A DNA stretch of 64,000 bases from Tubulanus polymorphus. Its lineage: Eukaryota; Nemertea; Palaeonemertea; Tubulaniformes; Tubulanidae. This document shows positions 5,563 to 59,821 of the stretch, piece by piece (position 1 is the first letter of the stretch; each line of letters begins with the position of its first letter). The stretch is from assembly GCF_964204645.1 (NCBI RefSeq), contig NC_134030.1:21829210-21893209 (forward strand), in the 5' to 3' direction. Under the pieces are notes generated by a model. That model was not told the DNA's origin, did not search any database, and saw nothing but the letters and a program-made list of their open reading frames with translations. The translations under genes were made by a program, and so were the position numbers.

Positions 5563-8500
5563 GTAAGATTCCGGGTCACGACTGGATGAATTTTACATGA
5601 ATTTGAAGATTCAAATGATTCAATTCCATGAAACATGATAAAACTCGAGGCCATCATCTCTTAACTCGAAATCATTTCTACACAATCAAACAATTTACTT
5701 ATGAAAGTCGTTATTTTTCAAAATTGTCACAAAACCTAAATTAATATATTTCAAAGTCTCAATTTACTAAGTCATTTGTCATTATTATTGGGTCTCATTT
5801 TACTAGGTGTAAGTCGTCATTCATTTAAAAAGCGTCACATACATACATATTACAAAAAAATAATTTTTGTATTTTACCTAAAGTGTAAATGATTTAGAAT
5901 AGTCAGCACAGCGGAGGAGTCTCGTGACGTCATCAGATTTTAAATCCGTGCGCGATGACGTAATTCTCTGTGTCGTCAGAATTGAGCGTTTTCTATTATT
6001 ATCTGTGAATTCATCACATTCAAATATTACACAATGATTTAGCATCTTTAACTTTCTATCTTGAGGCTGTTTGACTCAATCAAGGAACAATTAATTTTCT
6101 CCCATTTTAAAAACAACTTATTTACTTTATTCAGAGACTATTTGAGCTTTGAAATTAAGGAACAATTAATTTTTGTTTGACCTAGTTAATTATTCAATTC
6201 TCAATTGCTGTTATTTTTATCAATAGTTACAATGGAACTATTTCTAGCTTTATATAATTCAATTCAATCGCATCACCGATTAGTTTGAATTTCCGTTTCA
6301 GATGCAGGAAATGGAGGCAGAGTGGCTGGTGCTGTAATCGGTATACTGATATTACTGATTCTGATAATACTGTTTATACTGTGGCGTCGTGGCTGCTGTA
6401 AGTTTTACATAAAACCATCATTAAATCTTTAAAAAAAATAAACAAACTGCAGAAATGAAATACTGTATTAGGTGTAGAAAACCTAATGATGAACTGTGTA
6501 GCTGTGGAAATAGTTAGTTCTATAATATTTCATATACAGAATGCTAGAAATCCAAAAGTAGTGTACACAGCTGGAAGAATTCAGGGGTCCCAAGGTGGCC
6601 AGATACAGTTCATTCTCAATTATCTGTTCAAATTTTATTCATGCAATTGAATTCAAGAATGTTTGGAACTTAGTAGAACAGAATGTTATCATTTCTGGGA
6701 TTCAGCACGGGTTGGGTCGTAGTTTCAGATGGCTGCAAACGTGAAATGTGCTACGACCAAACATTCACCGGTTCCATAAAAATCATTTAGATGGAAACCG
6801 CCGCCATAGGTTTTCTTAGCCTCCAGGAGAAGCTACTATGTAACATCGTTCTCTTCACAAATAACGGTGTTTGAAAAAGTATCCATTTTATAATGTTTAG
6901 CATCATTCAACTTTCAATCAATTTTCTAGACACAATACGCGCATTATTCAGACCAGAATTTAGGTGCACGAGACGCATTAAAAATCTAAAGCCAGAATAT
7001 GCATAATGTTTATTTATTTTCGTCTGACATCGATCACTTATAGATCTGAATCAGTGCGGTCTAAATAAAACATCGTTTTTATATCTATTGTAAAATGCAG
7101 CATTAATTGAATTATCTAATGGCGAATGAATTACTCGTAGATGCACAGTCTTGGGTACAGGCTCGATACAAGTCACTGCGGGGTCATCAATCACCGTTGA
7201 TAGGTTAAGATTACTTGCCTACGTAGGTTCTGCATTTTCTCGTTGGGAAGTATCGTTAAGTTGTTGTGTGACGATAGTAATAAATTATCACATATGCCTA
7301 CCAGTTATCGGTAATGAAAACTTGCGTCCGGTTCCTTGTCCCAGTTACCATTTATTGCGAACTAGAAATTCCGTAAATCCGTGATTCCGAAATAGTACCG
7401 GAAACTCAAGAAAGTTATGCAGTATTATTGCTTCAATTATCTCATAGCATTAGTATCCATGACTATCTTTAGTGGGTGGCTCCAACAATATCCAAATCAC
7501 ACTGTTTCTTTATTGGGTTGATTTGTCAGGTGAACGTGCATCATGTTAACAAACAGTATTTCTGTTTTCTAATTTACAGTACCGCGTTTATGTCCGAAAT
7601 CTGAAGATGCGATTGAATTGTTGCGTTGGACAAGTGAAACCTGGTATGAAAAAGGTAAGATTCTCTCACATGATTTACTGCACATATTCTCAGATATCGG
7701 TTTGATAATTTTAGGTGTTGTTTTCTCTTTGTAGATCATGAGAATTGGGTGAAAACACGTGACCAACTGCAGCCAGGTACCTATTAACCCTATTTCTATG
7801 TAGAATATTTTGCATGAATACAGTTCATAGTTTTAGAAATCACCCAACTGTAAATGTCAATTTAAGTTTATGGTTTGTTAACAACGTAAGTTCTTGAAGA
7901 TTTCTTGAGAATTCTTTGATCAATTATGTTGATATTTCGTTTACATATTTATTTACCCTAGACACACATCTGTAGTCTTACTGGCGCATGCCTAGCGACC
8001 ATTGTTCTTAAAAGAAACCTCATGCACATTTTTGAAGTCTATGGGAAATTTCGAAGACATTTGGCTCATTTGTCTCGAGATCTGAAGTATACCCTGGACA
8101 AAACAACGTGCTCCGTAAAAAGACATTGGCTTGATCGAAATCAAGATGACTAATTTTCGATTTTCGTTTTCAAAAATCAGTACATTTTTGAAGTTTTCTA
8201 GAGAAATTTTGATAGAATCTATTTTTCTTGATGTTTGGTTTATACATGTATATACCCTAGATGTATCAACAGTTCTGAAAATGAATAGTTGGAATCAAGA
8301 CTGGCGGCTATTGTTACTCGGCAGGGCGGTTAAAACGACCCTCTTCTTTTTTTTACCAGGTCTAGAGGCTTTAAAAGATGGTCGTTTCTCAATATTTGTT
8401 TATTATGGAAATCTTCTTTCTGACCAGAAACTAGTCCATATTCACTTACGTGGAAATCCTGGACTTCACTTGTAGCAAGTGAGGATCCACCAGGTGCAAG

Positions 8501-11500: not shown

Positions 11501-14500
11501 CTGATGAAACAAAGAGAGGTTTGTTATACAATAAACTGATTATCATAATTTATCCATAATTTATTCAGATGTTGTTAATATTGAACTATTTACCGGTACT
11601 GAAAAAATGTAGGTACAAATTAACCCGCAATAGTGAATAATAGGCCCGAATAATAGAAACTGTCTTTATGGTTGGTATTACAGAATTGGGAGTGGCCGAC
11701 CGGGACCGTTTTGTGAACAAAGATATTTGTGGTAAGACTGAAAATGTTGTTCTTTTCTTATTTTTCATGCTAATTACAAATCGTTTCGTTAATGAGAAAT
11801 CCAAGGTACAATTAAGCCAGCTGGACCCAGGTAATGTGAACAACTGGCAACGTTGTCAAAATTCATCCGCTTTGTGGGAAATTAAAGGTTTCATAAGACC
11901 CGGTTAATCCAGATGTATTTGGATGAAATTCTAGTTTAAACTGATCTAATCAATATTTATGTTATTCTATCCATGTATTCATTTGTAGAATCAGTTTTAT
12001 CGGAGTCAAGTTTGCAGAAATTAGAAGAGAACAAACATTCTACAGAACTAGATAAAAGTAAGTTTAAACTTTCCTTGTCCCTAGAACTAAATTTACCGAG
12101 TATTTGATGACCATGAATTGAAGATGAAATTTATCGATGTCATCAGATTATCAGAAGCATCTGTTATGATTCAGAGCCGAGTTTTAAGTGGTGTTAAACT
12201 AAGAATGTATCTCGACAGTTTGTGTCGATAATCTTCAGACCGAGTTCGAATCATAGCTTGAAGAAACCATGTTTTGATTGTTATGCATACATCACATGGG
12301 GTGGCTCTGAGAATATCCAAATCATATCATCATAAGATGCTAGCTGAGGGTGATTTTTGTCAAAATCCTGCATTATGGGAAATGATTTTGTGATAAGTTT
12401 ATTTCGTTGTTTAACTATATTTTCAGGTATTTATGAAATAAGTCGAGATGTTTTAGGTGAGAACTAAATAGTACTAACAAACTATAAATATCGTGGTCTA
12501 GGGTCGAGAGCAGACGCTTTAAAAGACATTTCTAGCGGACAAACTCTTAATTTCACTGATAAAAACTTGTTGGATTTAATTTTTATCAGATATTTGAAAA
12601 GAGGTTCAAAATAGCAGTGTTGATTTTCAGCAGCAGTTGATGCTGTGTTGAAATCATGAATTATATTCTTTTTTTCAGAAATCAAATTGAAAATCGCAGT
12701 TTTCAAATCTATCAAAGGTAAGAAGTCTATGTATGGATTGCATCAGAATCAGCCGGGTTTATTCCATCATTTGCCAAGATTCAACCTGAGCTCAATTTGT
12801 TTTCTGAGAACTCAATTTCAGTTCTGATGTCATTTTCCTGGTAATTTATCTTCAAGAATCACTTTTAGAATTATACGCTGGACGAGCTGAAAGATTTCTG
12901 AAAGAACTCAAAGAGAAACTGAAACAAGAGGAAAATGAAGAGAGAAAAAATGAGGAGGAAATGAACAGAATAATTCACAGTTCAGTTTGTCAGGCGTTTA
13001 AATATATCACTGATATGAATGAAAGTAAATATCGATTTTATATCTCAAATTATACATGCACTTAACATGTCACATATTATGTGTGAATGAATACACATGT
13101 AACATGTTCATGTGAATGAATACACATATAACATGCTACATGTTACATGTGAATGAATGCGCATGTTACATGTTCATGTAAATTAATGCACATGTTGCAT
13201 GTTTAGTTCTCTGATATATTTCAGAAACTCTGATGGATAATAAAGTTGTAGGATATGGAGGTTTGTAAATAGTTCAATCACAAACCAGTTTTCAACGTAA
13301 ATAATCTGTTTGATTTTCTCTATTTATATTTCAGTGAGTCCAGAAGAGATAAGTGAGTTCTGATTGATATTTATAAATATTCTCAGTACAGTAGACTGCG
13401 CGCTTGCCTCTGATTTCATGTTGTAATTCGTCATATTTACCTGTTTATAAGTTGCAGTGATTTTCTATATTGATAGATTCTAAACTACATGAATTTGCCG
13501 ATAAAGAGTTTGAAGACAGAAAAGGTACCGTACACATTACAAAGTGTGATGATGCTTGAATGGATTGTTTTGATATCGGTTACCCTAGATCCGGGTGTCG
13601 TACATAGAAAGCAAGCTAACCAGTAGACCATGGGCGTATAAATTAGTCTAGTTTATACGCTCATGAGTAGACCAATAGAACTGTTTAGTGTTTATACAGC
13701 TTGTCCTATATGCGGAACGCTGTGACCTTTTTTGAGCCCAAAAAGTTCATTTTTGCCCTGAATTCCGAGACCTGTAGCTTCCGAATGGTTTGCCATTTTT
13801 CATTGAAATTCGTTATGGATATTTTTCGAAGGGCTCTTAAACATATCAGATGGGCTGACGTTGAATAATGGAATTTAGTAATGTTTTAAATTTTATTGAT
13901 GTTTATGATCAATGTTTATTACAGTCGGTATAAAGACACTTGAAGAAATATTGCCTCTAAAACTGAATATACCGGACCAACTCAGCACTGGTAAGTGACT
14001 ACACTGAAACTGGATGTTTGAATTGAAATTCAATACAGTAAACTTTAAATTTGTCGAGAATCAGGAAAATCGGTTTATCACAAACTTAAGGAATCTTTAT
14101 TTGAATTTAATCTAATTTGTAGACTTGTATGCAGGACGAGATCCAGTTATTCTGCCGGATCGAGCAGGTATTGTATAAGTCCGTAAAAAACTTAAGATAA
14201 CCAGTTTAATTCCATTCCATAATCATGCCGTTATCAAACGCCAACATATCTCAGGGAATAAATCCCGCAAATCTAAATTCAGTGGAAATACCATTCTTTA
14301 TAATACCTTGTACTTCATCGGTCCCAACTGTTGCATCATGAAGGACTTTCACTGTGAACAAAATTTGAGTTTTTTAAGAGCATTAGCCTGAAATATTCTG
14401 CAACTGATCTTTGTCCCTGTAAGGACGATTAATTCTTCTAAGTTCTTGTAACGAATCCTTAAACTGCTCGTTATTAAAACCAGAAAATGCTCTTCCGTCA

Positions 14501-17500
14501 TATACCTAATTGTGAGGTTAAGGCCCTGATAATGGTGTTCTAACCCTGGTTTACTGGTATTTTTAATGTCAAAATGCAAACTTAAAGCAATAACGGTTTT
14601 AAAATGAAACCGCACTCAATGAATGTTGTGTCTATGTTTGCTGTTTTTATATGAATTTCAGTGGAATATTTCAAGGAAGAATTCATTATTGCAATACAAT
14701 CTGATGAATCATTAAAAACTGCTACTCGAACTGCTTTAGTTAACAGTAAGTTACATCTACAGTAAACTACATTTACATCTACAACAAACTACATTTACAT
14801 CTACAGTAAACTACATTTAATACATCTACAATCAACAATTAGATACATTTATTCACTATGATTGTCAATCATAGAAACTTGTTTGTGGTTTTTTTAGAAC
14901 CAAGTAAAATCAACGATTTGTTGAGGAAAGAAAAGTCGAATGGTAAAATTATTTGATGAAATGTGGATAATTTGTTTGTTTTCACGAACCGAAAAATAAT
15001 TCAAACGTTTTTCTTCTATTTCTTAGTTAATAGAATTTATGGTGAAGTGAAAAAGAGAATAGAATCAATGTCTACAGGTTTGGATTTTAATGATTTTCTA
15101 TCAATTCTTGCATTTAAATGTCGGATATATTTCGATCCTCGTGTTGAGGTTTCTTTTCATAAAGCATATTATAATATATCATATTTCGCATAACGAAGTG
15201 GCTACTCGTACGAATAATTCCGTAGGCTATTCGTATGCACCCGTCGGATAACTCTGGAATTATGTGTTCGGGAAGGGATAGGGTTAGGGTAAGGTGAGGC
15301 TATATGTAGTTAAAACATTCGACCGACCGTCAGCGAGCTCGGTGGTCTAGTGGTACGATGCCGGCTAGTAATTTACTAGCCCGGGTTCGAGTCTCGCTCA
15401 ATCCGCTCTATTTTTCTCTAACTCTATTCTCCACACTTTCCTTGAATTTTCTAAGTCGTGCACCTCTGTACGCATGCGCGGCGTTAATCGGCCAATCAGC
15501 GACAGTTATTAGCGTACAGATCCTAGTCCCGTACGAATAGTCTCCAGAGTAATCCGTACGGGTCCGTACGAGTAGCCACAGCGTTCTCATAAACATGTCA
15601 TATCATATTATAAACCACTAGCATATACAATAATAATATATAAAATGTGATTTTGAAGGTGATGAGTTTTGTTTTACTTTTTATCACGGATTGATTCATT
15701 GCTGAATTTACGTTATTATTTCTATTTGTGATTTCAGAGGAATTAAATGAACGAGGAATCGTAGTTTATAGAAGTGAGTAAAAGTCAATTTGTCTGATTT
15801 GAATTCTAATCTGTTCATCAATTCCATATCCTGCTCCATAGTTACCCTGATCCCATAAACTCCTAACAAGAGACTCCCAACACTAGAATCATAACCCCCT
15901 CAGTTTTTTAAATTCAGATTTAGATCAAATTAAGTAAGAATTTTATAGTAAAAGTGAACTGTATGAATTTATCTGTTTAGATCTAATTAATGTATATTTA
16001 TTAGTTATTGTTGTTCTGTTTTTCAGTAAAAGATGAAATAGCGAGTAAGTACTGATAACAACTTCCATGTTAAAGTTTTGATAAATTTATATATCTCATG
16101 TCCTGTTTTAAATAGTAGTGGTTCTTATTAAAATCCAGTGAAACCGTTTTACAGATGATGAAAATACTTCCTTCAAGACAAAAGGAAGGATTGTGAAAGA
16201 AGAACATGTTTCCCTCTCCCTGCAGTAATCTATTGTGTTTATTCTGTTTCAGTGTTTCATATCAGACCAATTATTGCAAACAGAATCCCGGGATTTAAAG
16301 GTGAATACATTGTGTTGACTGTTAGGTGTTTTAATAATCAAATTAAATCGGTACCGAGAGTAAGAGTGGTCGACTGGTACTGAGTAAGGGTGGCGGTCGA
16401 CTGGTACTGAGAAAGGGTGGCGGTCGACTGGTACTGAGTAAGGGTGGCGGTCGACTGGTACTGAGTAAGGGTGGCGGTCGACTGGTACTGAGTAAGGGTG
16501 GCGGTCGACTGGTACTGAGTAAGGGTGAAGGTCGACTGGTACTGAGTAAGGGTGAAGGTCGACTGGTACTGAGTAAGGGTGAAGGTCGACTGGTACTGAG
16601 TAAGGGTGAAGGTCGACTGTATTTTGTAGGAGGATATTTGACGCTGTAGCAGCATAAATAGTTTACATCATCAGTCGATGTCACAGTTGTTTCTAATCAA
16701 CATTGTATAATTACAGATTCATTAGTGACTGTTTTAAAAGAGAAATGTAAAAAGGCTATCAGTATGTGGCCATCAAAACACTGGACATATGATATATCTA
16801 CCGCGAGTAAGTTCACAGTGAAATCAGTTTGTGATTTATAATAGAATTCTATTGTATAAAAACTTGTCTATTGTTTATTACATATAGTGTCTGTACTCAG
16901 TAAATTAACCAGTAAAACTTTAAAGACAAACACAGGTTATTGGAAACAAGTCCAAGAATGTTTCGGTAAATAATAAATTCTTGTTTCACTGAACGTTTTA
17001 TTAAATGATCTGATTTTTATGTTTTGAATAATAATTGTTTGTTCTGTTTGAATAGGAGATGAAATTGACAGTGAAACAAATACAACTGAACTGACAAAAA
17101 TAGGTGAATATCAATACAACAACTTAATATTTCCAGATTAACAAAAATTATTTCGAATTTTGCGTTGAATTCATTGAAGATCGAAATTCATCAATGTGAT
17201 CAGATCTTTAGAGGCATCTGTTTTGGTTCATGGGTTACACAGTATTATCAGTTGAATTCTCGGCTCAAAATCAATCATAGCTTGAAAAAATCACGTTTAG
17301 AGTGTAAAATTAAGAGGTGTTTGAAAATCGTCACTCTTTGGTTACATTTTGTATAGATGTGAAAATTTATTTATTATTCATTTGTTCGTTTATAGTTGAT
17401 GATTGTTTGGGTGAATGCATTAAAACAATGAGTGATAAATGGAACACTGGTGAGTACCCCTCATATGGTGGCTGATAAGGGCCATGAAAATATTTCCTGA

Positions 17501-19651: not shown

Positions 19652-19693
<42 letters not shown>

Positions 19694-22600: not shown

Positions 22601-25600
22601 ACTCCTGACACTAGACTCCTAACACTAAACTCCTGACCCTTACACTCCTAAAAATTAAACTCATAACCCGAAACTCCTAACACTAGACTCCTGACACTAG
22701 ACTCCTAACACTAAACTCCTAACATTAGACTCCTAACACTAGACTCCTAACACTAGACTCCTAACATTAGACTCCTAACACTAAACTCCTAACACTAGAC
22801 TCCTAACACTAGACTCCTAACACTAGACTCCTAACACAAGACTCCTAACACTAGACCCCTAACACTAGAATCCTAACACTAGAATCCTAACACTAGACTC
22901 CTGACACTAGACTCCTGACACTAGACTCCTAACACTAGACACCTAACACTAGACCCCTAACACTAGACTCCTAACACTAGACTCCTAACACTAGACTCCT
23001 AACACTAGACCCCTAACACTAGACTCCTAACACTAGACTCCTAACACTAGACTCCTAACACTAGACTCCTGACACTAGACTCCTGACACTAGACTCCTGA
23101 CACTAGAATCCTGACACTAGACCCCTAACACTAGACCCTTAACACTAGACTCCTAACACTAGACTCCTAACACTAAACTCCTAACACTAGACTCCTAACA
23201 CTAGACTCCTAACACTAGACTCATAACACTAGACTCCTAACACTAAACTCCTAACACTAAACTCCTGACACTAGACTCCTGACACTAGACTCCTAACACT
23301 AAACTCCTAACATTAGACTCCTAACACTAGACTCCTAACACTAGACTCCTAACACTAGACTCCTAACACTAGACTCCTAACACTAGACTCCTGACACTAG
23401 ACTCCTGACACTAGACTCCTAACACTAGACTCCTGACACTAGACTCCTGACACTAGACTCCTGACACTAGACTCCTGACACTAGACTCCTGACACTAGAC
23501 TCCTAACACTAGACTCCTAACACTAGACTCATAACACTAGACTCCTGACACTAGACTCCTGACACTAGACTCCTGACACTAGACTCCTAACACTAGACTC
23601 CTGACACTAGACTCCTGACACTAGACTCCTGACACTAGACTCCTGACACTAGACTCCTGACACTAGACTCCTGACACTAGACTCCTAACACTAGACTCCT
23701 AACACTAGACTCCTAACACTAGACTCCTAACACTAGACTCCTAACACTAAACTCCTAACACTAGACCCCTAACACTAGACCCCTAACACTAGACCCCTAA
23801 CACTAAACTCCTAACACTAGACTCCTAACACTAGACTCCTTACACTAGACTCCTAACACTAGACTCCTAACACTAGACTCCTAACACTAGACTCCTAACA
23901 CTTAACTCCTAACCCCAAGATCCTTTGCTGAGACTAAATTCAGCAATAAATAAAAATGATATTTATTTCTAAAAATCGCTTCACATCATGAAAATATCTC
24001 GAAGCTTTTAACCTGAAACATTGAAATGTTACAATATATCAAAAATATCAAATATCAAAAATAAGGTATAGAAATAAAGTAAAACATTGAATGACGATAT
24101 AATGAACAATGATTACAATTACTTAGGAAATAAAAAGAATTTAGAATTGAATAAAACATCAACAGAAATAAATACTCATGTAACAGAAATTTGTTTAAAG
24201 TATTTTTTGAAAGATGAGAAAAGTGTTTAGTTTTCATTATATTCTATAAATAATTAAGTTATATAATGAGTTTTTTTAGATTTAGATTTAAATCAAAAGA
24301 TGTGAGAATTATATAGTTAAAGTGAACCGTATGAATTGACCTGTTTATATCTACTCAATGTTTATATATGAATTATTGTTTTTCCTGTTTTTCAGTAAAA
24401 GATGAAACAGCGAGTAAGTACTGAGAACTGAATCGTTAAACTCTGTCTTGATATTTCCTGCTTTCAATAATACTGGTTCTTAGTAGCTCTAAATCCAGTG
24501 AAACTGCTCAAAGGGCTTTACACTGAAATGCTTTCTTAAGAAATAAACATTTTAAAGGCCGCCTGAATTTATAAATGGAAAGAACATCCCGTGGGCTGAC
24601 TTGACTGAAGGCTAGGCCCCTTATCAATCTTCAATATTTTGGGTTGTTTAGAACCTGTACAGTCAATTTTCATTCTCCGGTTTAACTCAATCGACTAAAT
24701 TTTAGGATGTGAAAGAAGATCATGTTTCATTCTCCCTGCAGTAAATATATTGTGTTTATTCTGTTTCAGTGAATCACATCAAACCAATTATTGCAAACAG
24801 AATCCAAACGGAATTTAAAGGTGAATACATTGTGTTGACTGAGAGACGTACGGGCGAAGGTCGACTGTTTTCTGTAGGAAGATATGTGACGCCATAGGCG
24901 AAGTATAGATATTTCACAATATCAGTCAATGTCACGGTAGTTTCTAATCAACATGTCTAATTATAGATTCACTAGTGACTGTTTTAAAAGAGAAACGTAA
25001 AAAGGCTAGCAGTACTGCGTTATCAAAATACTGGAAGTATGATATATCTCGCGCATGTAAGTTTATCAGTTTTTGATCTCTAATTGAATTCTATTGTCAC
25101 TCTGATATGATATGTCACAAGTTATAATCATAAGTATCTACAATTTCATATCGAAATGTTCAAAATATTTCATATCTCTTACTTCATAAAATACTTATTA
25201 ACTATCAAAATATAACAATAACAATGTAATATGATTTTACTAAATATGTTATTAATATGGGCTTTTATCGTAATCAACATGTCAGACTAGTCATAACGTA
25301 TTCATAGTAATTAACTCCAGTCAATCCTCATCAATAATGAATTTGTGTCTCTCAAACATATCGTTAGTTTGTGATTCCTGTTGGCTACAACTTGTCTGAC
25401 ACCTCTCCCTCCATACACATGATTCTGTTTAATAAAGACTATGTAAAGTTATGATAATCATTCACATTGTGGGATGCAATACAGATAGTACATATAAGGT
25501 TTAACTGCCTGTTCCTGATGGATGGAGTTCTGTACCGCTGGTGTAAATGCTAGCCCCCCCCCCCCCCCCACCCAGCCTACCTGCCGATACAACAACCAGC

Positions 25601-28600
25601 CGGTTACACTATTGTATAAAAACTTGTCTATTGTTTATTACATATAGTGTCTGAACTCAGTGAATTTACCAGTAAAACTTTAAAGACAAACACAGATTAT
25701 TGGAGACAAGTCAAAGAATGTTTCGGTAAATAATAAATTCTTGTTTCACTTCTGATTTTTTTAATGGTCTGACTTTCAGGTTTTGAATAATAATTGTTTG
25801 TTCTGTTTGAATAGGAGATGAAATTAACAGTGAAACAAATACAAATGAACTGACAGAAATAGGTGAATATCAATACAATAACAACTTATTATTCAAATAA
25901 ACAAAATGTGTTGTTGAATTCCAGAAGATAAAATTCATCAATGTTTTCAGATCTTTAGAGGCATCTGTTTTGATTCAGAGCCATGTTCTAAGTTTGAAAG
26001 TCACATTTTTTATCTCTGTGAATGTTTATTTTATTTAATCATTTTTTTCAGTTGATGAGTGTATGGGTAAATGTACTAAAACAATATGGGATGAATGGAA
26101 TGCTGGTGAGTACCCCTCATGAGTACCCTTCACGAGAACCATATATTACTAGTAGACTCAAAATGCAAGTCGTAATTTCAGTACCTGGGTACAAACTACT
26201 GGAAGTTAAGCCAGTAGTTTGTACCCAGATATGTGATCAGTGAAGTGAGTACAGATATATATATATATATATATGAGTACAGATATATATATATAATTGA
26301 TGTGAAACTGGCCCTTTCTTGTGCGGCAGCCGCCGCACAAGGAAGGGCCAGTTTCACATCAATTTTACTTAATAAAAGTTGTCATAAGCAACTGATAGTT
26401 AATTTTCTTCGTGGGACTGACCCCAGTAAACATTCAATAGTATTCATAATCAATCTGATAATAGTGTATATGTAGGATACATTATCTATTGTCAACCTGA
26501 CGACATAGTTTGCATAAATGGCGCAATAGAGGTATTCCAGGTTTCAAATAGTTGTTTTAGATTTTCAAGGCTTGAGATATTAAAAAGTTACGCGGGAGTA
26601 GGTGATCTTTTACTTCCGCATGTGCGAGGCATTCTAGCTGGGCATGGCGTTAATCGCCTAAGATTTGCATATTGCACTCATCACATTCGGCCATGCCACA
26701 GCCTTCCAATATATGTTTCATGCTAAACAACCATATGTAATCATTAACCTCTCCTGCGACTGTAAACATTACATAATACATTTTACTAGACAGGGATCTC
26801 TTATTTTCGGCGATAATTCGGGGTAGAGTGGTTTAGTCGTAGTATTCATTTACAAGAAGTTAGATGATTTTTTCAATACAGCTAATCCCCAAATTTCGCA
26901 AGCATATGATAAAATCGGTTTTACAAGTGCGTCAAAAAGATGGAAAGACGCGTCGTCCCCAAACCTATTTCTTGTGGATTTTTCTAAAACGTGGAATTGA
27001 GCCTTTGCACCACTGTCGGCTTACGTTTTGCGGCATTTGACAAAAGTTCCAGTATGGTTAAATATAACGCCAAGGTCCTTAAACTGGTCGACTATTTCGA
27101 TTTCACCATTTGCTAAGTGAAAATTGAGGAAATATGGAAGTCTTAGAATGCCGGTTTCAAGTCGAGGACACGGAAATTATTGAAATATAATAAACATTCG
27201 TGTGATGTTGATATATAATCTATAACAAGCTTAACAGCTCCTTTTAAGCAGGTAAAATCACCACCAGTTGCTTTATCGTCTCCAACTCGACCATCAGCAA
27301 TAGATAAGGCGTGATTCATTCTGTAACCATAATTATTGATACCACCAGTGTCACGGTTAAACATGTCTAAAATAGTATGCGCTCTGAGACGGTCGACAGC
27401 TTCATTCAGTTTGTCAAACAGACCGTCAACATTTAATTGATTGTCGCCATCGAGAAAAAGATATTGTAGTGTTCTTAGACACATTAGTAACTATCTTCAT
27501 CACTATGGAAAAAAGGTATCGATCTAAATCATCAAACAAACCAGCATGGCCGTATATTCTTCAGGTTCGGGGCTGAAATAAACGCCGCAAATGATAACGT
27601 CTTGTTGCACAGTTGAATTCTAGTTTTACCCATAGACATACATCACTTGTCTCGGTTTTCAATATGAATTTAGCATATTAGTTCTTAACAAAGATTACGG
27701 TTCCGCCCGATCTGCGCACTACGGTTGTTTTATTCACGCGTTAAAGCCTAGGCTTTCCGCAAAATTTGACACCCAGGGTCCAGTTACAGTGATGAGTTAG
27801 AGTTAACTCTTTGTTAAGATTAGTTCATTTTCAATCAGTTAACGCTGGGTCAAATCTTAACTCAGAACTGTGGAACTGGGTCCAGAAATCCAGTGTTTTC
27901 CACCTTTGTTTCGGTTAACACATGAGTACCAAATAGAAACCCTCAACTGAGTACCCGGCCCTGGTACCTGAATTATGTAATTTCAATTCAGAGATCAAGT
28001 TTAACAAGTTTTTGTGAACTTATATTTCATGTTTCAACATTTTAGACGATTTTAAAAACCGAAAGATGATTGTAGAGACAGGTGAATATTGTGTAGCTCT
28101 GATATTCAGCCTAGTATTGCCCCCTGGTGACTGTATGAGAAGTAACTATTCTGTTATTTGTATTTTAGACGAGATTGTTGATGAGATAAAACGCGCACAT
28201 TTTCAAACTCCCGAATTTATAAGTAAGTTTCCAATAAAATCAGAACCTGTTTTAACAACCAGAACTCAAATATTAATATCTGTATGTATTGTATTATTAT
28301 TTATAGGATCAGTTGAGACTGCAGTGAATGAAGCTATCCAGAATTCAGGTAATTAAATATTCATCATAAGTTCGAATTCTGTGTTTGAATTGAGCTCAGT
28401 TTGGCTGAAGGTGTATTGTTTTATTGTGCCGGCTTTCATTATGTTTACAGGGAAATCGAAACATAACAAAAAACCAGACTATGAAGCTGCAGGTTTGTAA
28501 AATATTTCTACAATCAAACAATAACATTTTCTCATTTGACTGATGTAGTTAAGATGTGATCACTCCCTGATGACCACTAGGATGTGATCACTCCCTGATG

Positions 28601-31553
28601 ACCACTAGGATGTGATCACTCCCTGATGACCACTAGGATGTGATCACTCCCTGATGACCACTAGGATGTGGTTTCTTGTTTTCCCCTCAGAATTATATCT
28701 TATCATTTCAGAGAAGTGGATAGCTGATGAAATGAAAGGTAAATTGACTGATAATAAATAAGTTTCATTCAGAGTTGAACAGTTTGTGAGGTTTTTCTAT
28801 TTTTCATTTTACCAATTTTTAATTACAGATTTCAAATTTCCACTACCTGATATTTTTGGTATGTAATATTGTTACCTCTCAGTGGCGGCTACGAACTGAA
28901 ATATTCAACTAATCGATCAATTGAGTAAAAATTATGTTGATTTTTTTAGAGCTCAATGACTATGCTAAACGGGCAGAGAAACAAGGTAAAATGAAGATGG
29001 AAATGTATGGATAAAATTCAGTCATCAATTTTGGTAATATTTTGTGAAGTTAATTAATTTATATTTCAGTCAGTAATTATTCCACATATTTGTTGAACAA
29101 GATACGTGCTATGAAAGATAAAGGTAATTAAAAGTGGCTTAAACATAAACATCTTACTGGCCATAATACTGACCAATACTAAAAAATATATTTGTCAATA
29201 CTAAATCATACTTACTTAATATTAACTAAATTTTGACTCAATACTAACTTAATACTAACAATACTGACTCAATAAGACTTACAACTGACTCAAAACTAAC
29301 TTAATACTGACTCAATACTGATTTGATACTGACTCAATGCTGATTCAATGTTAACCAATACCGACTCTATACCGACTCAATACCGACCACTCATTACCGA
29401 CTCAATACTGATTTAATACCGACTAAATACCGATTCTATATCAACCAATACCGACTCTATACCGACTCAATACCGACCACTCATTACCGACTCAATACTG
29501 ATTTAATACCGACTAAATACTGATTCTATATCAACCAATACCGACTCTATACCGACTCAATACCGACCACTCAATACCGACTCAATACTGATTCAATACT
29601 TAATGCTCAACTCTGATACAATACTTATAGGAACCATCTGTGATGTCTATTTGAGCTTCCTTTTAAAAATATGAAGTTGATTCAATATTATGAAAGAATA
29701 TTGTGGTTGTGAATTTTATTTTATTTTCAGGCGATTTGAAAAGGAAAGGTTTCCTGGTAAATGAAACGAGTAAGTAAATTATGAAGTCGTTATTAGATTT
29801 AGAGCAGGCTCGAGAGATGAAATAGTCTGAGATAGAATAAATCGACGAAATTGAGATGAAATTTAGTTTCGTTTTCGTTTATGAGAAATCTGAAGTATGA
29901 TTAAACCGGTTTAATCTGGATAACTGGCGGGACACCGGGATGAAATTCATGTAGTTTGAGTAGTTTATTCAACGTTTCGACTATATCCTAATAGTCATCT
30001 TCAGGAATACTGTATTCCTTAAGCTAGTGTAGTTTATTCAACGTTTCGACTATATCCTAATAGTCATCTTCAGGAATACTGTATTCATTGAGCTAGTGTA
30101 GTTTATTCAACGTTTCGACTATATCCTAATAGTCATCTTCAGGAATACTGTATTCCTTGAGCTAGTGTAGTTTATTCAACGTTTCGACTATATCCTAATA
30201 GTCATCTTCAGGAATACTGTATACCTTGAGCTAGTGTAGTTTATTCAACGTTTCGACTATATCCTAATAGTCATCTTCAGGAATACTGTATACCTTGAGC
30301 TAGTGTAGTTTATTCAACGTTTCGACTATATCCTAATAGTCATCTTCAGGAATACTGTATTCATTGAGCTAGTGCAGTTTATTCAACGTTTCGACTATAT
30401 CCTAATAGTCATCTTCAGGAATACTGTATTCATTGAGCTAGTGTAGTTTATTCAACGTTTCGACTATATTCTAATAGTCATCTTCAGGAATACTGTATTC
30501 CTTGAGCTAGTGTAGTTTATTCAACGTTTCGACTATATCCTAATAGTCATCTTCAGGAATACTGTATTCATTGAGCTAGTGCAGTTTATTCAACGTTTCG
30601 ACTATATCCTAATAGTCATCTTCAGGAATACTGTATTCCTTGAGCTAGTGTAGTTTATTCGACGTTTCGACTATATCCTAATAGTCATCTTCAGGAATAC
30701 TGTATTCCTTGAGCTAGTGTAGTTTATTCAACGTTTCGACTATATCCTAATAGTCATCTTCAGGAATACTGTATTCCTTGAGCTAGTGTAGTTTATTCAA
30801 CGTTTCGACTTTATTCTAATAGTCATCTTCAGGAATACTGTATTCCTTGAGCTAGTGTAGTTTATTCAACGTTTCGACTATATTCTAATAGTCATCTTCA
30901 GGAATACTGTATTCCTTGAGCTAGTGTAGTTTATTCAACGTTTCCACTATATCCTAATAGTAATCTTCAGGAATACTGTATTCCTTGAGCTAGCGTAGTT
31001 TATTCAACGTTTCGACTTTATCCTAATAGTCATCTTCAGGAATACTGTATTCCTGATCTCATAAATATGTATGTGGTGTAAGGAACACTTTGGACTTAAT
31101 AAAACACCCAGAAAAAGAAATCAAAGATAATTCTAACTGAATCAGGGGTGGAATTAGTTGAGGTATTATTAACGATTGTCACTGTTAACAGTAAAGCCGT
31201 AATTAGTTGAATTTTCAAGAGGTTGTTCATTTTATGAAACAGACTGTAGCGGGTTATATATAGTTGTATAAAAACAGTTACAAGCTAAACACATCTAAAA
31301 CAGAGTAAACTCTAGGGGCCACTGATAAAGTATTGTGAATATAAGTTAAAGTTGACGGGTATCTACATTTAGGGAGTGTGCAGTTGTATTCGGTGTTTGG
31401 TTTATATTGTACATATATCTATTTATAGAAGCTCCTAGTCAGAGTAAAGAAACTGCTGCTAGTGATGGTCAAAGTGCTGCTGATGATAGTCACACAAGTG
31501 ATACCGTACCGAGTGGTGATCGTGAGTGGGGTGATATCGGTACACAAGTCTAG
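834..31553 (+). CDS. Gene A: Ig-domain type I receptor with a 59-exon cytoplasmic tail (65 exons, complete)
   Basis: I assembled this by eye from GT-AG sites, using gene B as comparison. Exon lengths sum to 4578 nt, an exact 1526 codons including the stop at 31551-31553. Approximate residues: signal exon 1-38; four Ig-like exons 39-446; transmembrane exon 447-478; cytoplasmic tail 479-1525. Every intron is phase 1 (exons end one base into a codon), and every internal exon is a multiple of 3, so any exon can be skipped in frame. The tail is charged, mostly short helix-like K/E/L segments with no enzyme motif I recognise. The C-terminus ends G-T-Q-V, a class I PDZ ligand pattern (S/T-x-hydrophobic). 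Exons 27-41 and 42-56 are a tandem duplication. I chose the start because it opens a hydrophobic signal peptide ending in K-R-N-T, the same ending as gene B. Function is unknown; a surface receptor is inferred from topology. Exon coordinates are in the five segment entries that follow. Individual exon ends may be off where a splice site is weak. Confidence 0.82.
1490..1535 (-). other. Hammerhead-ribozyme-like core motif in gene A intron 1
   Basis: On the minus strand CTGATGA (from plus-strand 1525-1531) is followed by a hairpin with GGCT/AGCC arms and then GAAA (from 1498-1501). That is the conserved core order CUGANGA, stem II, GAAA. Hammerheads are known from Penelope-like retroelements, which leave such remnants. 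I could not complete stems I and III, so catalytic activity is unsupported. Confidence 0.3.
2011..2610 (+). repeat. 82-bp tandem array duplicating the acceptor and 5' end of the gene A Ig1 exon
   Basis: Acceptor AGs fall at exact 82-bp spacing: 2036, 2118, 2200, 2282, 2364, 2446, 2528, 2610. Each unit carries intron end GATATTTCAG plus about 56 nt of exon (A-P-D-G-V-V-L-D-S-V-N-V-L-P-G). Only the last unit continues into the full Ig exon. Using any upstream acceptor runs into an in-frame TGA within the same unit (CGT ATA TTG TGT ATT TGA). None of the seven decoy units has a donor. Confidence 0.92.
4412..5215 (+). repeat. 78-bp minisatellite from a tRNA-like (SINE) segment, gene A intron 4
   Basis: The array starts with an A-box-like segment (CCAGTGGTAGTGCAGACC, near 4423). 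About nine units of mainly 78 bp follow, each with CAGAGTCTCACGATG and a B-box-like GGTTCAAATCC or AAGTTCAAATCC. Because 78 is divisible by 3, long frames stay open on both strands; these are not genes. The array lies between the Ig3 and Ig4 exons and is removed by splicing. Confidence 0.8.
6302..6397 (+). CDS. Gene A exon 6: transmembrane segment
   Basis: This 96-nt exon follows a pyrimidine-rich acceptor. It encodes a short glycine-rich linker, then about 22 uninterrupted hydrophobic residues (AVIGILILLILIILFILW), then the stop-transfer sequence RRGC. It is the only transmembrane segment in the gene. The homologous exon in gene B is 44639-44737. Everything downstream should be cytoplasmic. 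Confidence 0.88.
6472..6512 (+). pseudogene. Gene A relic of a cysteine-rich juxtamembrane exon
   Basis: This matches gene B exon 7 (44827-44871) over its whole length (K-P-N-D-E-L-C-S-C-G-N in the aligned frame). It is 41 nt instead of 45, which breaks the frame, and its donor is GTTAGT where B has GTAAGT. Skipping it joins exon 6 (6397) to 7580 perfectly in frame, giving codon T|TA. The next three cysteine-rich exons of gene B have no trace here: the interval 6398-7579 is about 0.8 kb shorter than B's. Gene A therefore appears to have lost the whole CxC juxtamembrane module. Confidence 0.7.
7580..13260 (+). CDS. Gene A exons 7-26: juxtamembrane and proximal tail, 20 small exons
   Basis: Exons: 7580-7654, 7735-7776, 8931-8972, 9111-9185, 9492-9539, 9820-9849, 9932-9982, 10069-10131, 10549-10632, 10905-10952, 11040-11078, 11234-11251 (18 nt), 11336-11383, 11465-11518, 11684-11731, 11989-12057, 12427-12456, 12679-12717, 12869-13024, 13225-13260. 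All are multiples of 3 and phase 1-1, and each has a counterpart of equal length in gene B. The first exon reads IELLRWTSETWYEK. The largest (156 nt) encodes a Glu/Lys-rich likely coiled coil (KEKLKQEENEERKNEEE). Exon 19 begins GTAAGT directly after its acceptor AG, so it carries a donor motif at its own 5' edge. I recognise no domain family. Exon lengths and short sequence matches suggest this stretch is an older, degenerate copy of the 15-exon block that follows. Confidence 0.78.
8380..8815. other. Unidentified element-like stretch in gene A intron 8, repeated in gene B
   Basis: A relatively GC-rich segment ending CCTCAAATCCTGGATCCGCCACGT carries a minus-strand open frame of 135 codons (8330-8737). 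The counterpart in gene B (about 47335-47705) is frame-shifted into two pieces. It is therefore unlikely to be a living gene and may be a transposon remnant. I recognise no family. Confidence 0.3.
9249..9365. mobile_element. Foldback (MITE-like) element, gene A intron 10
   Basis: Arms of about 47 bp pair across a 20-nt AT-rich centre. The left arm starts CCCGGGGCCGGGTTTATAGA; the right arm ends TCTATAAAACCGGGTCCTG. Arms match except for a few small bulges. The orthologous copy is at 48131-48246. Confidence 0.7.
9590..9770. repeat. CATG-rich simple repeat, gene A intron 11
   Basis: Imperfect repeats of ACATGTACATGTGAGTAATGTG. Related CATG-rich tracts occur at 13075-13200, 48460-48650 and 52005-52140 in the corresponding introns. 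The open frames here are repeat artefacts. Confidence 0.7.
13075..13205. repeat. ACATGTAACATG repeats in intron after the coiled-coil exon (gene A)
   Basis: Four or five units built on ACATGTTCATGTGAATGAATGCAC. The same array is in gene B at 52005-52140. Confidence 0.65.
13335..18133 (+). CDS. Gene A exons 27-41: tail block 1 (15 exons)
   Basis: Exons: 13335-13352 (18 nt), 13477-13524, 13925-13990, 14123-14167, 14662-14745, 14898-14942, 15027-15077, 15738-15773, 16027-16044 (18 nt), 16253-16300, 16717-16806, 16888-16965, 17056-17103, 17396-17449, 18098-18133. The order of peptide signatures is SPEEI, KLHEFADKEFE, LEEILPLKL, GRDPVILPDRA, EYFKEEFI, INDLLRKEKSN, RIYGEVKKRIE, ELNERGIVVYR, IKDEIA, IRPIIANRI, LVTVLKEKCKKA, VSVLSKLTSKTLKTNTGYWK, GDEIDSETNTTELTKI, DDCLGECIKTM, DFKNRKMIVGK. 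The same signatures recur in the same order in block 2, so this is a tandem intragenic duplication. The block contains a TIR element (15194-15583) and a 27-bp VNTR in introns. No function is recognised. Confidence 0.8.
13565..13640 (-). other. tRNA-like remnant in gene A block 1 intron (also at 52515-52590)
   Basis: On the minus strand TGGTCTACTGGTTAGCTTGC resembles a tRNA D-arm/A box. It is followed about 30 nt later by a decayed B-box region (CACCCGGATCTAGGG). Probably an old SINE or tRNA pseudogene. Confidence 0.35.
15194..15583. mobile_element. 390-bp TIR element with 9-bp target duplication, gene A block 1
   Basis: Ends are near-perfect inverted repeats (CGAAGTGGCTACTCGTACG at left; CGTACGAGTAGCCACAGCG at right). 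Flanks are TTCGCATAA (15185-15193) and TTCTCATAA (15584-15592), a 9-bp target duplication with one mismatch. The paralogous intron at 60501 reads TTTCTCATAAACATATC, the uninterrupted site. It has no transposase, so it is non-autonomous; the superfamily is uncertain. It contains a tRNA-like core (15330-15402). Confidence 0.8.
15330..15402 (+). other. tRNA-like pol III promoter core inside the TIR element
   Basis: TGGTCTAGTGGTACGATGCC (A-box/D-arm-like), a perfect anticodon-arm-like hairpin GGCTAGTAATTTACTAGCC, then CGGGTTCGAGTCTC (B box). The acceptor stem and anticodon loop geometry are wrong for a working tRNA. It repeats in the gene B copy at about 54314-54386. Confidence 0.45.
16354..16619. 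repeat. 27-bp VNTR, gene A block 1 (about 10 units)
   Basis: Unit GGTCGACTGGTACTGAGTAAGGGTGAA with GAA/GGC variants. It lies in the intron after exon 36. Long minus-strand frames across it arise because 27 is divisible by 3. Confidence 0.9.
18359..28081 (+). CDS. Gene A exons 42-56: tail block 2 (15 exons, introns inflated by repeats)
   Basis: Exons: 18359-18376, 18696-18743, 18828-18956, 19122-19169, 19773-19856, 20010-20054, 20219-20269, 21725-21760, 24396-24413, 24770-24820, 24967-25056, 25648-25725, 25815-25862, 26052-26105, 28046-28081. Order and most lengths match block 1. The exon at 18828 is 129 nt instead of 66 because of added coding sequence (residues such as IKTPDDQIKTQD) that block 2 of gene B also has. 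The block spans 9.7 kb against 4.8 kb for block 1. The excess comes from a composite foldback insertion (about 20835-21614), a 14-bp satellite (21825-23915), a roughly 515-bp insertion (25097-25613), hairpins near 26200-26364 and a LINE fragment (26585-27720), all intronic. All exons stay open and in frame, which argues for selection on the coding sequence. Confidence 0.78.
19578..19693. repeat. AAT / GATGAC microsatellite, gene A block 2 (also 59714-59822)
   Basis: Runs of AATAATAATT followed by GATGATGACGATGACGATGA in an intron. The same composite is found in gene B block 2 and not in block 1 of either gene. Confidence 0.8.
20440..20760. repeat. Inverted GCCCCTTT-type repeats flanking an intronic insertion
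   Basis: CCCATTTTGCCCCTTTCC-type units (20440-20530) are answered by GGGAAGGGGCGAAATTGGAA-type units (20690-20745) on the opposite strand, and a CACGCATGCACG microsatellite follows. These form the outer part of an insertion found only in gene A block 2. Confidence 0.55.
20835..21614. mobile_element. AT-rich foldback element with repeated ends, gene A block 2
   Basis: The left end repeats GGTAAAAATGCTAGAGGTAA; the right end carries its reverse complement TTACCTCTAGCATTTTTAC several times. About 0.6 kb of AT-rich non-coding DNA lies between. The element is absent from the three homologous introns. Non-autonomous, family unknown. Confidence 0.55.
21825..23915. repeat. 14-bp satellite, about 2.1 kb, gene A block 2
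   Basis: About 145 tandem copies of CTCCTAACACTAGA with variants (CTCATAAC, CTCCTGAC, CCCCTAAC). The same intron in the other three blocks holds only a two-to-three-unit seed, for example ACTCCTAACAAGAGACTCCC near 15860, 54850 and 60825. Blocks of variant order recur, showing segmental amplification. Confidence 0.92.
25097..25613. mobile_element. About 515-bp insertion in gene A block 2
   Basis: The homologous introns read AATTCTATTGTATAAAAACTT without interruption. Here TATTG is repeated on both sides of the insert, a possible 5-bp target duplication. The insert contains a run of C and ends CAGCCGGTTACAC. Family unknown. Confidence 0.5.
26185..26228. repeat. Perfect 18-bp inverted repeat
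   Basis: CTGGGTACAAACTACTGG (26185-26202) and CCAGTAGTTTGTACCCAG (26211-26228) with an 8-nt spacer, in the intron after exon 55 of gene A. Confidence 0.8.
26295..26364. repeat. 33-bp-arm hairpin with 4-nt loop
   Basis: Arms 26295-26327 and 26332-26364 are complementary at 32 of 33 positions, with loop AGCC. The one mismatch (T against C) would be a G-U pair in the minus-strand transcript. The arms contain GAAACTGGCCCTT and its complement. It lies beside an (AT)n tract in a gene A intron. It could be a small foldback element or a young hairpin-RNA source. Confidence 0.85.
26585..27720 (-). pseudogene. Truncated LINE (non-LTR retrotransposon): endonuclease joined to late reverse transcriptase
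   Basis: On the minus strand, 27720-27140 encodes a broken exonuclease-endonuclease-phosphatase domain (SGGTVIFVKN, VCLWVKLEFN, GRVGDDKATGGDFTC, NNFRVLDLKP), with stops and frame changes. It is followed at once (27130-26870) by the end of a reverse transcriptase region (EIVDQFKDLGVIFN, LFDALVKPILSYACEIWG). The catalytic middle of the reverse transcriptase is absent. It lies antisense in the intron between exons 55 and 56 of gene A. Dead element; clade not assigned. Confidence 0.7.
27772..27893. mobile_element. Short foldback element next to the LINE
   Basis: GGGTCCAGTTACAGTGATGA at the left and AACTGTGGAACTGGGTCC at the right are imperfect inverted ends of a roughly 120-bp element. Ends resemble those at 36248-36394, suggesting one MITE-like family. 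Confidence 0.5.
28169..31553 (+). CDS. Gene A exons 57-65: C-terminal tail ending in a PDZ-type motif
   Basis: Exons: 28169-28222, 28307-28348, 28451-28492, 28712-28738 (27 nt), 28829-28858 (30 nt), 28950-28985, 29070-29123, 29731-29769, 31429-31553 (last, with stop). The small exons encode charged helix-like pieces (DEIVDEIKRAHFQ, ELNDYAKRAEKQ, YLLNKIRAMKDK). The final exon is Ser/Asp-rich (SKETAASDGQSAADD) and ends EWGDIGTQV. T at -2 and V at 0 match a class I PDZ ligand; that is a pattern match, not evidence of binding. No counterparts of these nine exons were found in gene B within the window. An AATAAA at 31875 would give a 3' UTR of roughly 320 nt. Confidence 0.75.
28556..28672. repeat. 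28-bp tandem repeat, four copies
   Basis: ATGTGATCACTCCCTGATGA followed by CCACTAGG, repeated four times almost perfectly in the intron between gene A exons 59 and 60. Confidence 0.85.
29160..29625. repeat. Degenerate ACTCAATACYG repeats with 3 higher-order copies
   Basis: Short units such as CCGACTCAATACCGACCACT. A segment of about 110 bp containing CTATATCAACCAATACCGAC recurs in the same order, in the intron before exon 64 of gene A. Confidence 0.7.
29948..31053. repeat. 69-bp tandem array, about 16 units, with internal hairpin
   Basis: Each unit contains TTTCGACTATATCCTAATAG followed by TCATCTTCAGG. GACTAT/ATAGTC form a 6-bp stem, and GGAATACTGTATTCC is a palindrome. On the minus strand the unit reads CTGAAGA, stem, GAAA, the core order of a hammerhead ribozyme. 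It sits in the last intron of gene A. Confidence 0.9.
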
Positions 31554-37200: not shown

Positions 37201-37643
37201 AGTTGTATGATGACATAGATTCTGTTACTGTGACTGACAAACTGCACACCAGCGATCAGAAAGTTACTACAGATCCGTACGCGAATATCGAGGCCGGGAA
37301 CGGCGAAGATACGGCTCGGTACATGGATATGGCAGCCGCGAAGGGTAAAGATACAACTTCATATATAGATATGGAAGCCGGGAAGGGCAAAGATACAACT
37401 CCTTATATGGATATGGGACCCGGGATAGAAGAGGATACGTACAGGAGTACTGAAACCGGGAAGGACAAACACACAACTCCTTACACGAATACCGGAGCCG
37501 AGAAGCGCAAAGATAGACATAGTTACGTGAATACCGAAGCCGGAAAGGCGCGCCATTTGAAGAAAGATACTGATGAACCCGTGAAAGATGATGTTGAACT
37601 TTATTCTTACGCTACTGTTCAATATACTCGCAATAGGCGTTAG
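34284..37643 (+). CDS. Gene C: single-Ig type I receptor with tandem YxDM / YxN tyrosine motifs
   Basis: Five exons: 34284-34383, 34922-35242, 35965-36008, 36773-36882, 37133-37643 (stop TAG), about 361 residues. Exon 1 is a signal peptide (FLIIYTILLQLG) ending near an N-x-T sequon. Exon 2 is an Ig-like domain (EYICKT, SEQW, FRCLV) clearly homologous to the third Ig exon of genes A and B, sharing blocks such as VIxQQKRR and KADFKLHNGT. Exon 4 carries the membrane span (GFLLVIVIIVVIVIC) followed by RRRR. The tail repeats a roughly 18-residue unit of the type GKDTTxYMDM. It gives YMDM, YIDM, YMDM (YxxM, the binding pattern of PI3K p85 SH2 domains) and YANI, YTNT, YVNT (YxN, the Grb2 SH2 pattern), plus YDEL, YDDI and YATV. 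Intron phases are 1, 0 and 2 at the last three junctions, unlike A and B. The 44-nt exon 3 uses a weak donor (GTATCT) and is the least certain part. Confidence 0.8.
36248..36394. mobile_element. MITE-like foldback element in gene C intron 3
   Basis: GGCCCAGTTGCACAGTCTTG at the left pairs with CATGACTATGCAACCGGCC at the right. Internal copies of AAGTC/GACTT and TAGTCTTAA give it a folded structure. A decayed relative with CCCTAGTTGCGCAGTAT and CACTGTGCACATT lies in gene B at about 45003-45133. Confidence 0.6.
37257..37560 (+). repeat. Coding repeat encoding tyrosine motifs in the gene C tail
   Basis: About five diverged units of 51-60 bp in frame. Each encodes Y-x-(D/N)-x, then (E/G)-A-G-K or a variant, then G-K-D-T-T. 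Tyrosine contexts in order are YANI, YMDM, YIDM, YMDM, YRST, YTNT, YVNT. The Tyr and the +2 Asp/Asn are conserved while linker residues drift, which suggests selection on the phosphotyrosine motif rather than on bulk sequence. Confidence 0.7.

Positions 37644-59785: not shown

Positions 59786-59821
<36 letters not shown>

Follow-up and report, generated by a model that had tools for sequence, protein, structure and literature searches.

Gene A, a predicted Ig-type receptor, carries 59 consecutive internal exons, running from its transmembrane exon to an exon at 29731-29769, whose lengths are all multiples of three and which are all (59/59) in phase 1-1, each boundary splitting a codon behind its first base. 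The gene lies in a window of 64,000 nucleotides, by which we mean the whole stretch of DNA analysed here (C6:21829210-21893209), in a genome of 267.8 Mb with twelve large contigs; lengths were read for 19 of its 77 contigs, twelve measuring 11.5–32.1 Mb and seven at most 0.25 Mb. We lean towards a reading in which gene A is the long member of a paired receptor system, with a constrained tail of phase-1 cassettes that would be exchanged within a receptor array and would meet PDZ-type partners, and with a short receptor that would provide signalling.

The exon chain of gene A was obtained by dynamic programming over AG/GT splice sites and then refined by hand. It closes with a terminal exon that ends in a TAG stop codon at 31553, and encodes 1079 amino acids, approximately 1047 of which lie behind the transmembrane exon. 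The internal exons are small, 56 of 59 falling within 18–90 nt (the exceptions being 96, 129 and 156 nt) and 39 of 59 being no longer than 51 nt. In the 64-kb window we counted 145 phase 1-1 exon candidates, compared with 14–36 for each of the eight other phase pairs. Gene A was also scored with splice matrices for which gene B was the sole training set; phase 1 then reached a score of 300.6 in the gene A region, versus 82.8 for phase 0 and 38.4 for phase 2, and the best score among dinucleotide shuffles of the region (n = 20) was 19.5. In the dynamic programming, the reverse strand of the same region gave at most 2.9. The chain found unaided with the gene-B matrices has 49 exons, 45 of them exactly among the 59, and the 14 exons outside it have weak donors and are supported by hand refinement and by paralogs. 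The re-built chain, the phase-pair counts and the shuffles confirm what an earlier note on this DNA had read from the letters, namely 59 consecutive phase 1-1 exons that are multiples of three and mostly 18–90 nt long, and the tail of 1047 residues that it gave was likewise recovered.

The same note had held that gene B, further along the window, repeats the design with the same lengths. Indeed, 20 of 20 exons in the first part of the gene B tail equal those of gene A in length and the tail follows the same plan, but four further exons stand in the juxtamembrane part of gene B, and the end of the last internal exon of its tail lies approximately 4.2 kb past the window. The features of both genes, and of a short receptor (S) between them, are collected in Table 1.

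Table 1. Positions in the window of the features of genes A and B and of short receptor S.
Feature	Position	Strand	Remarks
Gene A signal-peptide exon, MRNLWRNPQKCLVIYVIILLNLMAYNNSPQAFRVKRNT	834..948	+	phase-1 donor; by eye
Gene A Ig-like domain 1 exon (Ig1)	2611..2901	+	Pfam Ig_2 E 0.027, below cut-off
Gene A Ig-like domain 2 exon (Ig2)	2999..3334	+	coding DNA identical to paralog g4
Gene A Ig-like domain 3 exon (Ig3)	4034..4360	+	Pfam C2-set_2 E 0.011, below cut-off; low-confidence model
Gene A membrane-proximal domain exon (D4)	5293..5562	+	
Gene A transmembrane exon	6302..6397	+	first of 59 phase 1-1 exons
Gene A tail first part, exons 2-21	7580..13260	+	364 aa; single copy in all nine annotated genes
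Gene A tail module 1, exons 22-36	13335..18133	+	15 exons, 254 aa
Gene A tail module 2, exons 37-51	18359..28081	+	duplicate of module 1
Gene A tail C-part, exons 52-59	28169..29769	+	
Gene A terminal exon	31429..31553	+	end ...GDIGTQV*
Short receptor S	34284..37643	+	signal peptide, one Ig exon, transmembrane exon, tyrosine-rich tail; exon ends by eye
Short receptor S, Ig exon	~34923-35241		related to gene A Ig3
Short receptor S, tail	~37134-37643		
Gene B signal peptide and ectodomain	40474..43924	+	Ig1 40953-41237, Ig2 41747-42082, Ig3 42854-43189, D4 43655-43924
Gene B transmembrane exon	44639..44737	+	
Gene B four Cys-rich juxtamembrane exons (ja-jd)	44827..45736	+	absent from gene A chain
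Gene B tail, exons 2-21 and two modules	46762..64000	+	C-part outside window

Several repeats accompany these genes. Tandem repeats of 82 bp lie at 2013-2658 (7.9 copies) and 40617-41009 (4.8 copies), and because the repeat copies carry the acceptor and the first codons of the Ig1 exon of genes A and B, several competing acceptors precede Ig1. The intron before D4 holds tandem repeats of a tRNA-like element, recognised by eye, at 4475-5231 and 43312-43570, with several frames open. A 27-bp minisatellite occupies the same intron in both genes, with 9 copies in gene A (16368-16619) and 51 in gene B (55368-56757); one unit of it has 22 exact matches in the genome, all at C6:21.807-21.886 Mb. Another minisatellite, with a 14-bp unit and approximately 150 copies, lies within a gene A intron (21812-23913). 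Lastly, the segment 6473-6530, outside the gene A chain, is probably, as judged by eye, what remains of an exon corresponding to gene B's first juxtamembrane exon (RKPNDELCSCGN, donor gttagt).

We annotated nine genes of the long type (A, B, g1, g2, g3, g4, g7, g8 and g16), the sequence used covering neither the end of g2 nor the g3 transmembrane region. The annotation followed similarity to gene A with phase 1 imposed, and the conservation of phase in the paralogs is therefore partly by construction. The following test of constraint on stops and gaps is free of this weakness. Each of the 59 gene A exons, together with 120 nt of flank, was aligned to eight paralogs by DNA similarity only, and exon places were accepted at ≥70% of length and ≥70% identity (362 kept, 46 dropped as low quality). 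No stop codon was seen in the gap-free exons of the eight paralogs, where 64.1 were expected (5274 codons, 1176 substitutions), and frame-breaking gaps numbered 16 in exons (0.84 per kb) versus 1448 in flanks (22.4 per kb), which makes them approximately 27-fold rarer in exons. Gaps of three or multiples numbered 34 (1.78 per kb) in exons versus 455 (7.0 per kb) in flanks, and over the 362 places exons diverge from gene A by 8.1% and flanks by 13.4%. Judged from these alignments, the tail exons of gene A are under coding constraint; a pseudogene or a non-coding chain is excluded by the lack of stops and by the deficit of frame-breaking gaps. The splice sites are also conserved. In seven paralogs (g16 left out) the acceptor AG diverges by 0.5% and donor positions +1 to +6 by 2.8%, and intron flanks beyond approximately 30 nt diverge by 12–20% versus 7.8% for exons, so that nothing points to extended regulatory flanks.

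An earlier exon screen, which set aside 56 partial places and passed 324 of 347, had flagged 2 stops and 10 frameshifts, part of which are misalignments (exon 12 of g2, for example, is without a stop). The real lesions are a 1-nt deletion in exon 16 of g16, a lost donor at exon 20 of g16, and a truncated exon 18 in g4. Paralog g16 (L012, L013, L017; C6:18.06-18.08 Mb) sits 3.7 Mb off, and because of its two lesions it may be a decaying copy.

The annotated genes share one order, namely transmembrane exon, juxtamembrane exons where these occur, exons 2-21, one or two 15-exon blocks, C-part, and the terminal exon where it was found. The 15-exon block has two copies in A, B, g2, g4 and g8 and a single copy in g1, g3, g7 and g16, and the Cys-rich juxtamembrane exons are present in B, g1, g7 and g16 and were not found in A, g2, g4 and g8. 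For exons 2-21, 157 of 160 positions are filled in the eight paralogs, and 149 of the 158 labelled exons share the length of their gene A counterpart (in this count exon 16 of g16 is missing, label 15 occurs twice in g16, and exon 13 of g2 is present though unlabelled). In g8 a single exon is duplicated in tandem. By this comparison of sequences, cassettes are duplicated both singly and as a 15-exon block, and are also lost, in frame and with the T-x-V end of the protein kept. The coding DNA of Ig2 in gene A (3001-3333) is identical to that of g4 (L014:3447-3779), which suggests very recent gene conversion. Module 1 of gene A is nearest to that of gene B (5.6%), and exons 2-8 of g3 are identical to those of g4, yet the module of g3 is nearest to that of g7 (8.2%). 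That the nearest paralog differs by segment suggests that cassettes were exchanged between array members.

A profile self-comparison of the tail returned a weak likeness between exons 12-15 and 29-32 (E 0.0012, probability 19%, the exons being mapped by eye), which hints weakly that a block was duplicated at an earlier time, and the comparison detected no mutual relation among the exons within one block. Descent of all exons from one duplicated exon was considered and rejected, the self-comparison having given this one weak older block likeness only.

The best Pfam matches of the ectodomain were Ig_2 for Ig1 and C2-set_2 for Ig3, both under the curated cut-off; no Pfam Ig profile matched Ig2, D4 or the Ig exon of the short receptor, and none of the matches was to a butyrophilin family of Pfam. 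The structure models are of low confidence (pLDDT 68 for Ig1 and 58 for Ig3), and most of the Foldseek matches shown for them have an Ig fold, although those for Ig1 include some phage capsid chains; none reached E ≤ 0.001. From these sub-threshold profile matches and low-confidence models, the ectodomain exons appear to be Ig-like. The earlier note had proposed a search for relatives of the 1047-residue tail, and none was found in Pfam or, by sequence and profile, in the PDB; the searches of the PDB gave weak haemoglobin and L27 matches (E ≥ 0.27) that we took as chance, and a scan of prokaryote genomes with alignment A2 gave no relative of the tail. The hydrophobic periodicity of the tail peaks at 90–100 degrees (z ~5–6 versus 30 shuffles, and ~6 at 90–95 degrees), and the tail is therefore probably helical, with the periodicity of an amphipathic helix. 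Exon lengths do not follow a heptad rule, the number of residues being a multiple of seven in 8 of 58 exons. All six terminal exons found among the nine genes close with T-x-V, four of them as TQV and the other two as TVV; they were found by likeness to that of gene A, so that a different C-terminus could be missed, and g1, g2 and g16 gave none. This C-terminus matches the pattern of a class I PDZ ligand.

Rates of change were estimated with a codon model (IQ-TREE, GY+F3X4), gene conversion lying outside the model. Omega was 0.57 for the ectodomain; within the tail it was 0.80 over exons 2-21, 0.975 over the modules and 1.48 over the C-part. The ranges, interpolated on a likelihood grid at a two-unit drop, were ~0.46–0.75 for the ectodomain, 0.6–1.05 for exons 2-21 and 0.8–1.2 for the modules. 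By these ranges, amino-acid change relative to synonymous change is higher in the modules than in the ectodomain, and exons 2-21 overlap the latter. For the C-part the excess over 1 is not significant (1.33 units at omega 1), and the modules do not differ from 1. Among the ectodomain exons omega was 0.57 for Ig1, 0.48 for Ig2, 0.80 for Ig3 and 0.61 for D4, Ig3 being no lower than exons 2-21, and pairwise values scatter widely (0.45–2.0 for the tail; 0.23–0.50 for the ectodomain exons of A versus B). Fast change in immune receptors is usually extracellular. The idea put forward in the earlier note, that this receptor changes on its signalling side, is supported here between paralogs in evolution, where tail omega is 0.80–1.48 versus 0.57 and cassette numbers differ; a tail omega near 1 equally fits weak constraint on residues.

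Weak constraint of this kind is part of the alternative that survives best, namely that the uniform phase is a record of phase-1 block duplication, with constitutive exons, a weakly constrained and drifting tail, and a modularity that is not used. The recent block duplication, the weak older likeness between exons 12-15 and 29-32, the conserved splice sites and the module omega close to 1 would all be expected under this account. However, the exons inside one block are not detectably related and single-exon duplication thus cannot explain all of them, the tail is not dispensable since its frame stays intact, as does the T-x-V C-terminus wherever this was found, and whole-ectodomain omega is below module omega. 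We consider this alternative rather unlikely.

With regard to splicing, the earlier note had stated that any subset of the exons can be skipped. The reading frame is indeed kept in every case, and 1746 of 1770 forward junctions leave the joint codon open, but in the remaining 24 the joint codon is a stop, the upstream exon being the transmembrane exon in 19 of these and exon 47 in the other 5. Because the transmembrane exon ends in T, splicing from it to many of the tail exons (19/59) would give a tailless receptor. The donors fall into two classes, and weak donors mostly stay weak in the paralogs: gtttgt is kept at exons 15 (8/10), 21 (9/9), 28 (12/14) and 54 (8/8), gtattg at exon 25 (11/13), and gtactg at exon 23 (10/14). 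Frame-safe exons, open junctions and two conserved donor classes are what would be expected if many of the 58 exons after the transmembrane exon were independently included or skipped, giving many intracellular tails per gene, and excerpts of published accounts offer precedents in the seven optional tail exons of shrimp Dscam and the few skipped tail exons of chicken BG0. However, exons 2-21 are almost fully retained in the eight paralogs, the splice sites are conserved yet the intron flanks diverge beyond the exons, exon lengths do not come in units of a helical repeat, and the T-cell tail variants of chicken BG are described in the excerpts as intron read-through, not free skipping. The retention, the near-invariant donors and the divergent flanks are at least as compatible with constitutive inclusion, and judging from the sequence most tail exons are probably present in most transcripts, with some in-frame skipping. 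Extensive combinatorial splicing is an unlikely explanation in our opinion, and we are more doubtful still of an extended form in which the tail would be a combinatorially spliced intracellular code, with a near-identical ectodomain, a set of tail exons that varies by cell or individual between a fixed anchor and a fixed PDZ-ligand end, and identity placed on the signalling side, and in which the short receptor would read the same ligand by tyrosine signalling. Finally, it is very improbable that the chain joins two genes, an Ig-transmembrane receptor with a short tail and a separate downstream gene, as might be suggested by those 19 immediate stops and by the 1182 nt between the transmembrane exon and the first tail exon in gene A, since the order of ectodomain, transmembrane exon and tail and the phase are the same in A, B, g1, g4, g7 and g8, the six genes for which all four ectodomain exons were found (phase 1 being imposed by the annotation), g16 shows Ig2, D4, transmembrane exon and tail, and the transmembrane donor, gtaagt after the exon's final T, is kept in 8/8.

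The window sits in a tandem array of 11 long and 10 short one-Ig receptors in alternation, most of the long and short labels being assigned from Ig3 identity. The array (C6 21.68-22.09 Mb) holds 22 Ig3 matches, the distance from a short receptor to the next long one is 7.6–9.7 kb, and no short receptor is among the matches listed between the first two long receptors of the array. In the whole genome the Ig3 exon of gene A has at least 69 matches, 24 of them at ≥77% identity (the long type), 39 at 42–56% and 6 partial or weak, and by sequence identity genes A and B are two of up to about 24 predicted paralogous long receptors. A conserved 52-residue tail exon has at least 18 matches, of which 16 fall on C6 and one each on C9 and C19, and 4 of the 18 listed matches contain a stop within the six-frame match. 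Searches of the genome for COX1, STING, GFP and GH6 families gave no match; as control genomes gave none either for the last three, those results do not demonstrate absence.

Those members of the 42–56% class whose tails were read, namely receptor S, the ones beside B and beside g4, and those at C9:4.40 Mb (L043) and C6:18.34 Mb (L044), are of the short type, combining a single Ig exon with a tyrosine-rich tail. The relatives of S beside B and g4 are close and those at L043 and L044 more distant. The tail of S contains YMDM, YIDM, YMDM, three YxN sites and YSYATVQY. In the four short tails scanned, YxxM occurred in 4/4 and YxN in 3/4, presumably as PI3K and Grb2 sites, with a canonical ITIM pattern in one (L043) and an ITSM-like one in another (L044); the motif scan found no ITIM pattern in the gene A tail. 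Ig3 of gene A is 51% identical to the Ig of three short receptors. As in paired receptors, the neighbours have related ectodomains and different tails, the short tails of the array having been read in three.

Long runs of tiny multiple-of-three exons are a feature of schistosome micro-exon genes, which encode secreted proteins without the Ig-transmembrane receptor layout. The Alr proteins of Hydractinia and Podocoryna are hard-to-recognise Ig-like receptors. Like the genes described here they are encoded by clustered, much-duplicated receptor genes, whereas the excerpted description (PMC13119343) makes no mention of a many-exon tail. The statement of the earlier note that known splicing diversity mainly concerns ectodomains leaves out chicken BG (PMC4046983, PMC5938342), shrimp Dscam (PMC6851185) and Botryllus FcoR (PMC12065747), and as far as the excerpts of these papers go, tail diversity as such is already known from BG and shrimp Dscam. 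Our literature search encountered no description of the present receptor family.

According to the same excerpts, chicken BG genes, of the butyrophilin family at the MHC B locus, have an Ig-V domain, a transmembrane exon and 13–36 tail exons of 21 or 24 nt (PMC4046983). The first codon of each tail exon is split one base to two, which equals phase 1, truncation occurs by intron read-through, and tail variation appears selected while Ig-V variation does not (PMC5938342); in BG0, a few skipped tail exons are reported (PMC5043582). The two families are alike in being tandem multigene families with an Ig-like ectodomain, a single transmembrane exon and a long many-exon tail in phase 1 (59/59 in gene A), whose exon number varies by paralog. 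They differ in that BG has one Ig-V domain and heptad exons of a presumed coiled coil, whereas the present genes have four Ig-like exons, up to 62 tail exons (in gene B, with transmembrane and juxtamembrane exons included) of mostly 18–156 nt and a duplicated 15-exon block, and they alternate with short receptors. A tail of BG-type heptad exons (21, 18 or 24 nt) was rejected for gene A, where lengths range over 18–156 nt and 8/58 are multiples of seven residues. Set beside BG by description, the design of genes A and B could be seen as a larger, non-heptad variant of the BG kind.

Two further systems resemble parts of this arrangement. In Penaeus monodon Dscam, the transmembrane region and tail are encoded by exons 31-44 and seven tail exons can be included or skipped (PMC6851185); it is likewise an Ig receptor with optional cytoplasmic exons, but by this excerpt it is one gene whose variants are mostly mutually exclusive ectodomain exons (26, 81, 26). 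In Botryllus, the adjoining fester and FcoR genes are neighbouring paired Ig-type receptors, one without known signalling motifs and the other with a tyrosine-motif tail, and splicing of FcoR can swap an ITIM for a hemITAM or the reverse (PMC12065747). Unlike the long receptors here, fester as excerpted has a short tail and three transmembrane segments, and its splicing variation is mostly between the transmembrane and Ig/Sushi regions. In the same source, 64 fester variants found by PCR were unconfirmed by bulk transcriptomes, which is a warning for any claim of this type of splicing diversity.

In the reading that we prefer, with an adjustable long receptor paired to a short one, the long receptor would consist of a signal peptide, four Ig-like exons, one transmembrane segment, a tail of ~1,000 residues and a C-terminal T-x-V. 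The tail would be an adjustable helical arm or scaffold between the membrane and PDZ-type partners, its fold and partners being guesses because it has no Pfam or PDB relative. The uniform phase would let recombination in the array alter the length and composition of the tail, and since every internal exon is in phase 1, a change of cassettes leaves the T-x-V C-terminus in frame. The alternating short receptor, with its related Ig and YxxM tail, would be the tyrosine-signalling partner, and the paired system may serve self/non-self or pathogen recognition. If this is true, the solution of the BG type, namely an Ig receptor with a frame-safe cassette tail in which change is concentrated inside the cell, would have been reached in this animal, whose genome is smaller than those of birds, in a larger form and with a regular pairing of long and short receptors. 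It would also make testable, at one locus, whether uniform phase is kept for the exchange of cassettes between genes or for their mixing by splicing.
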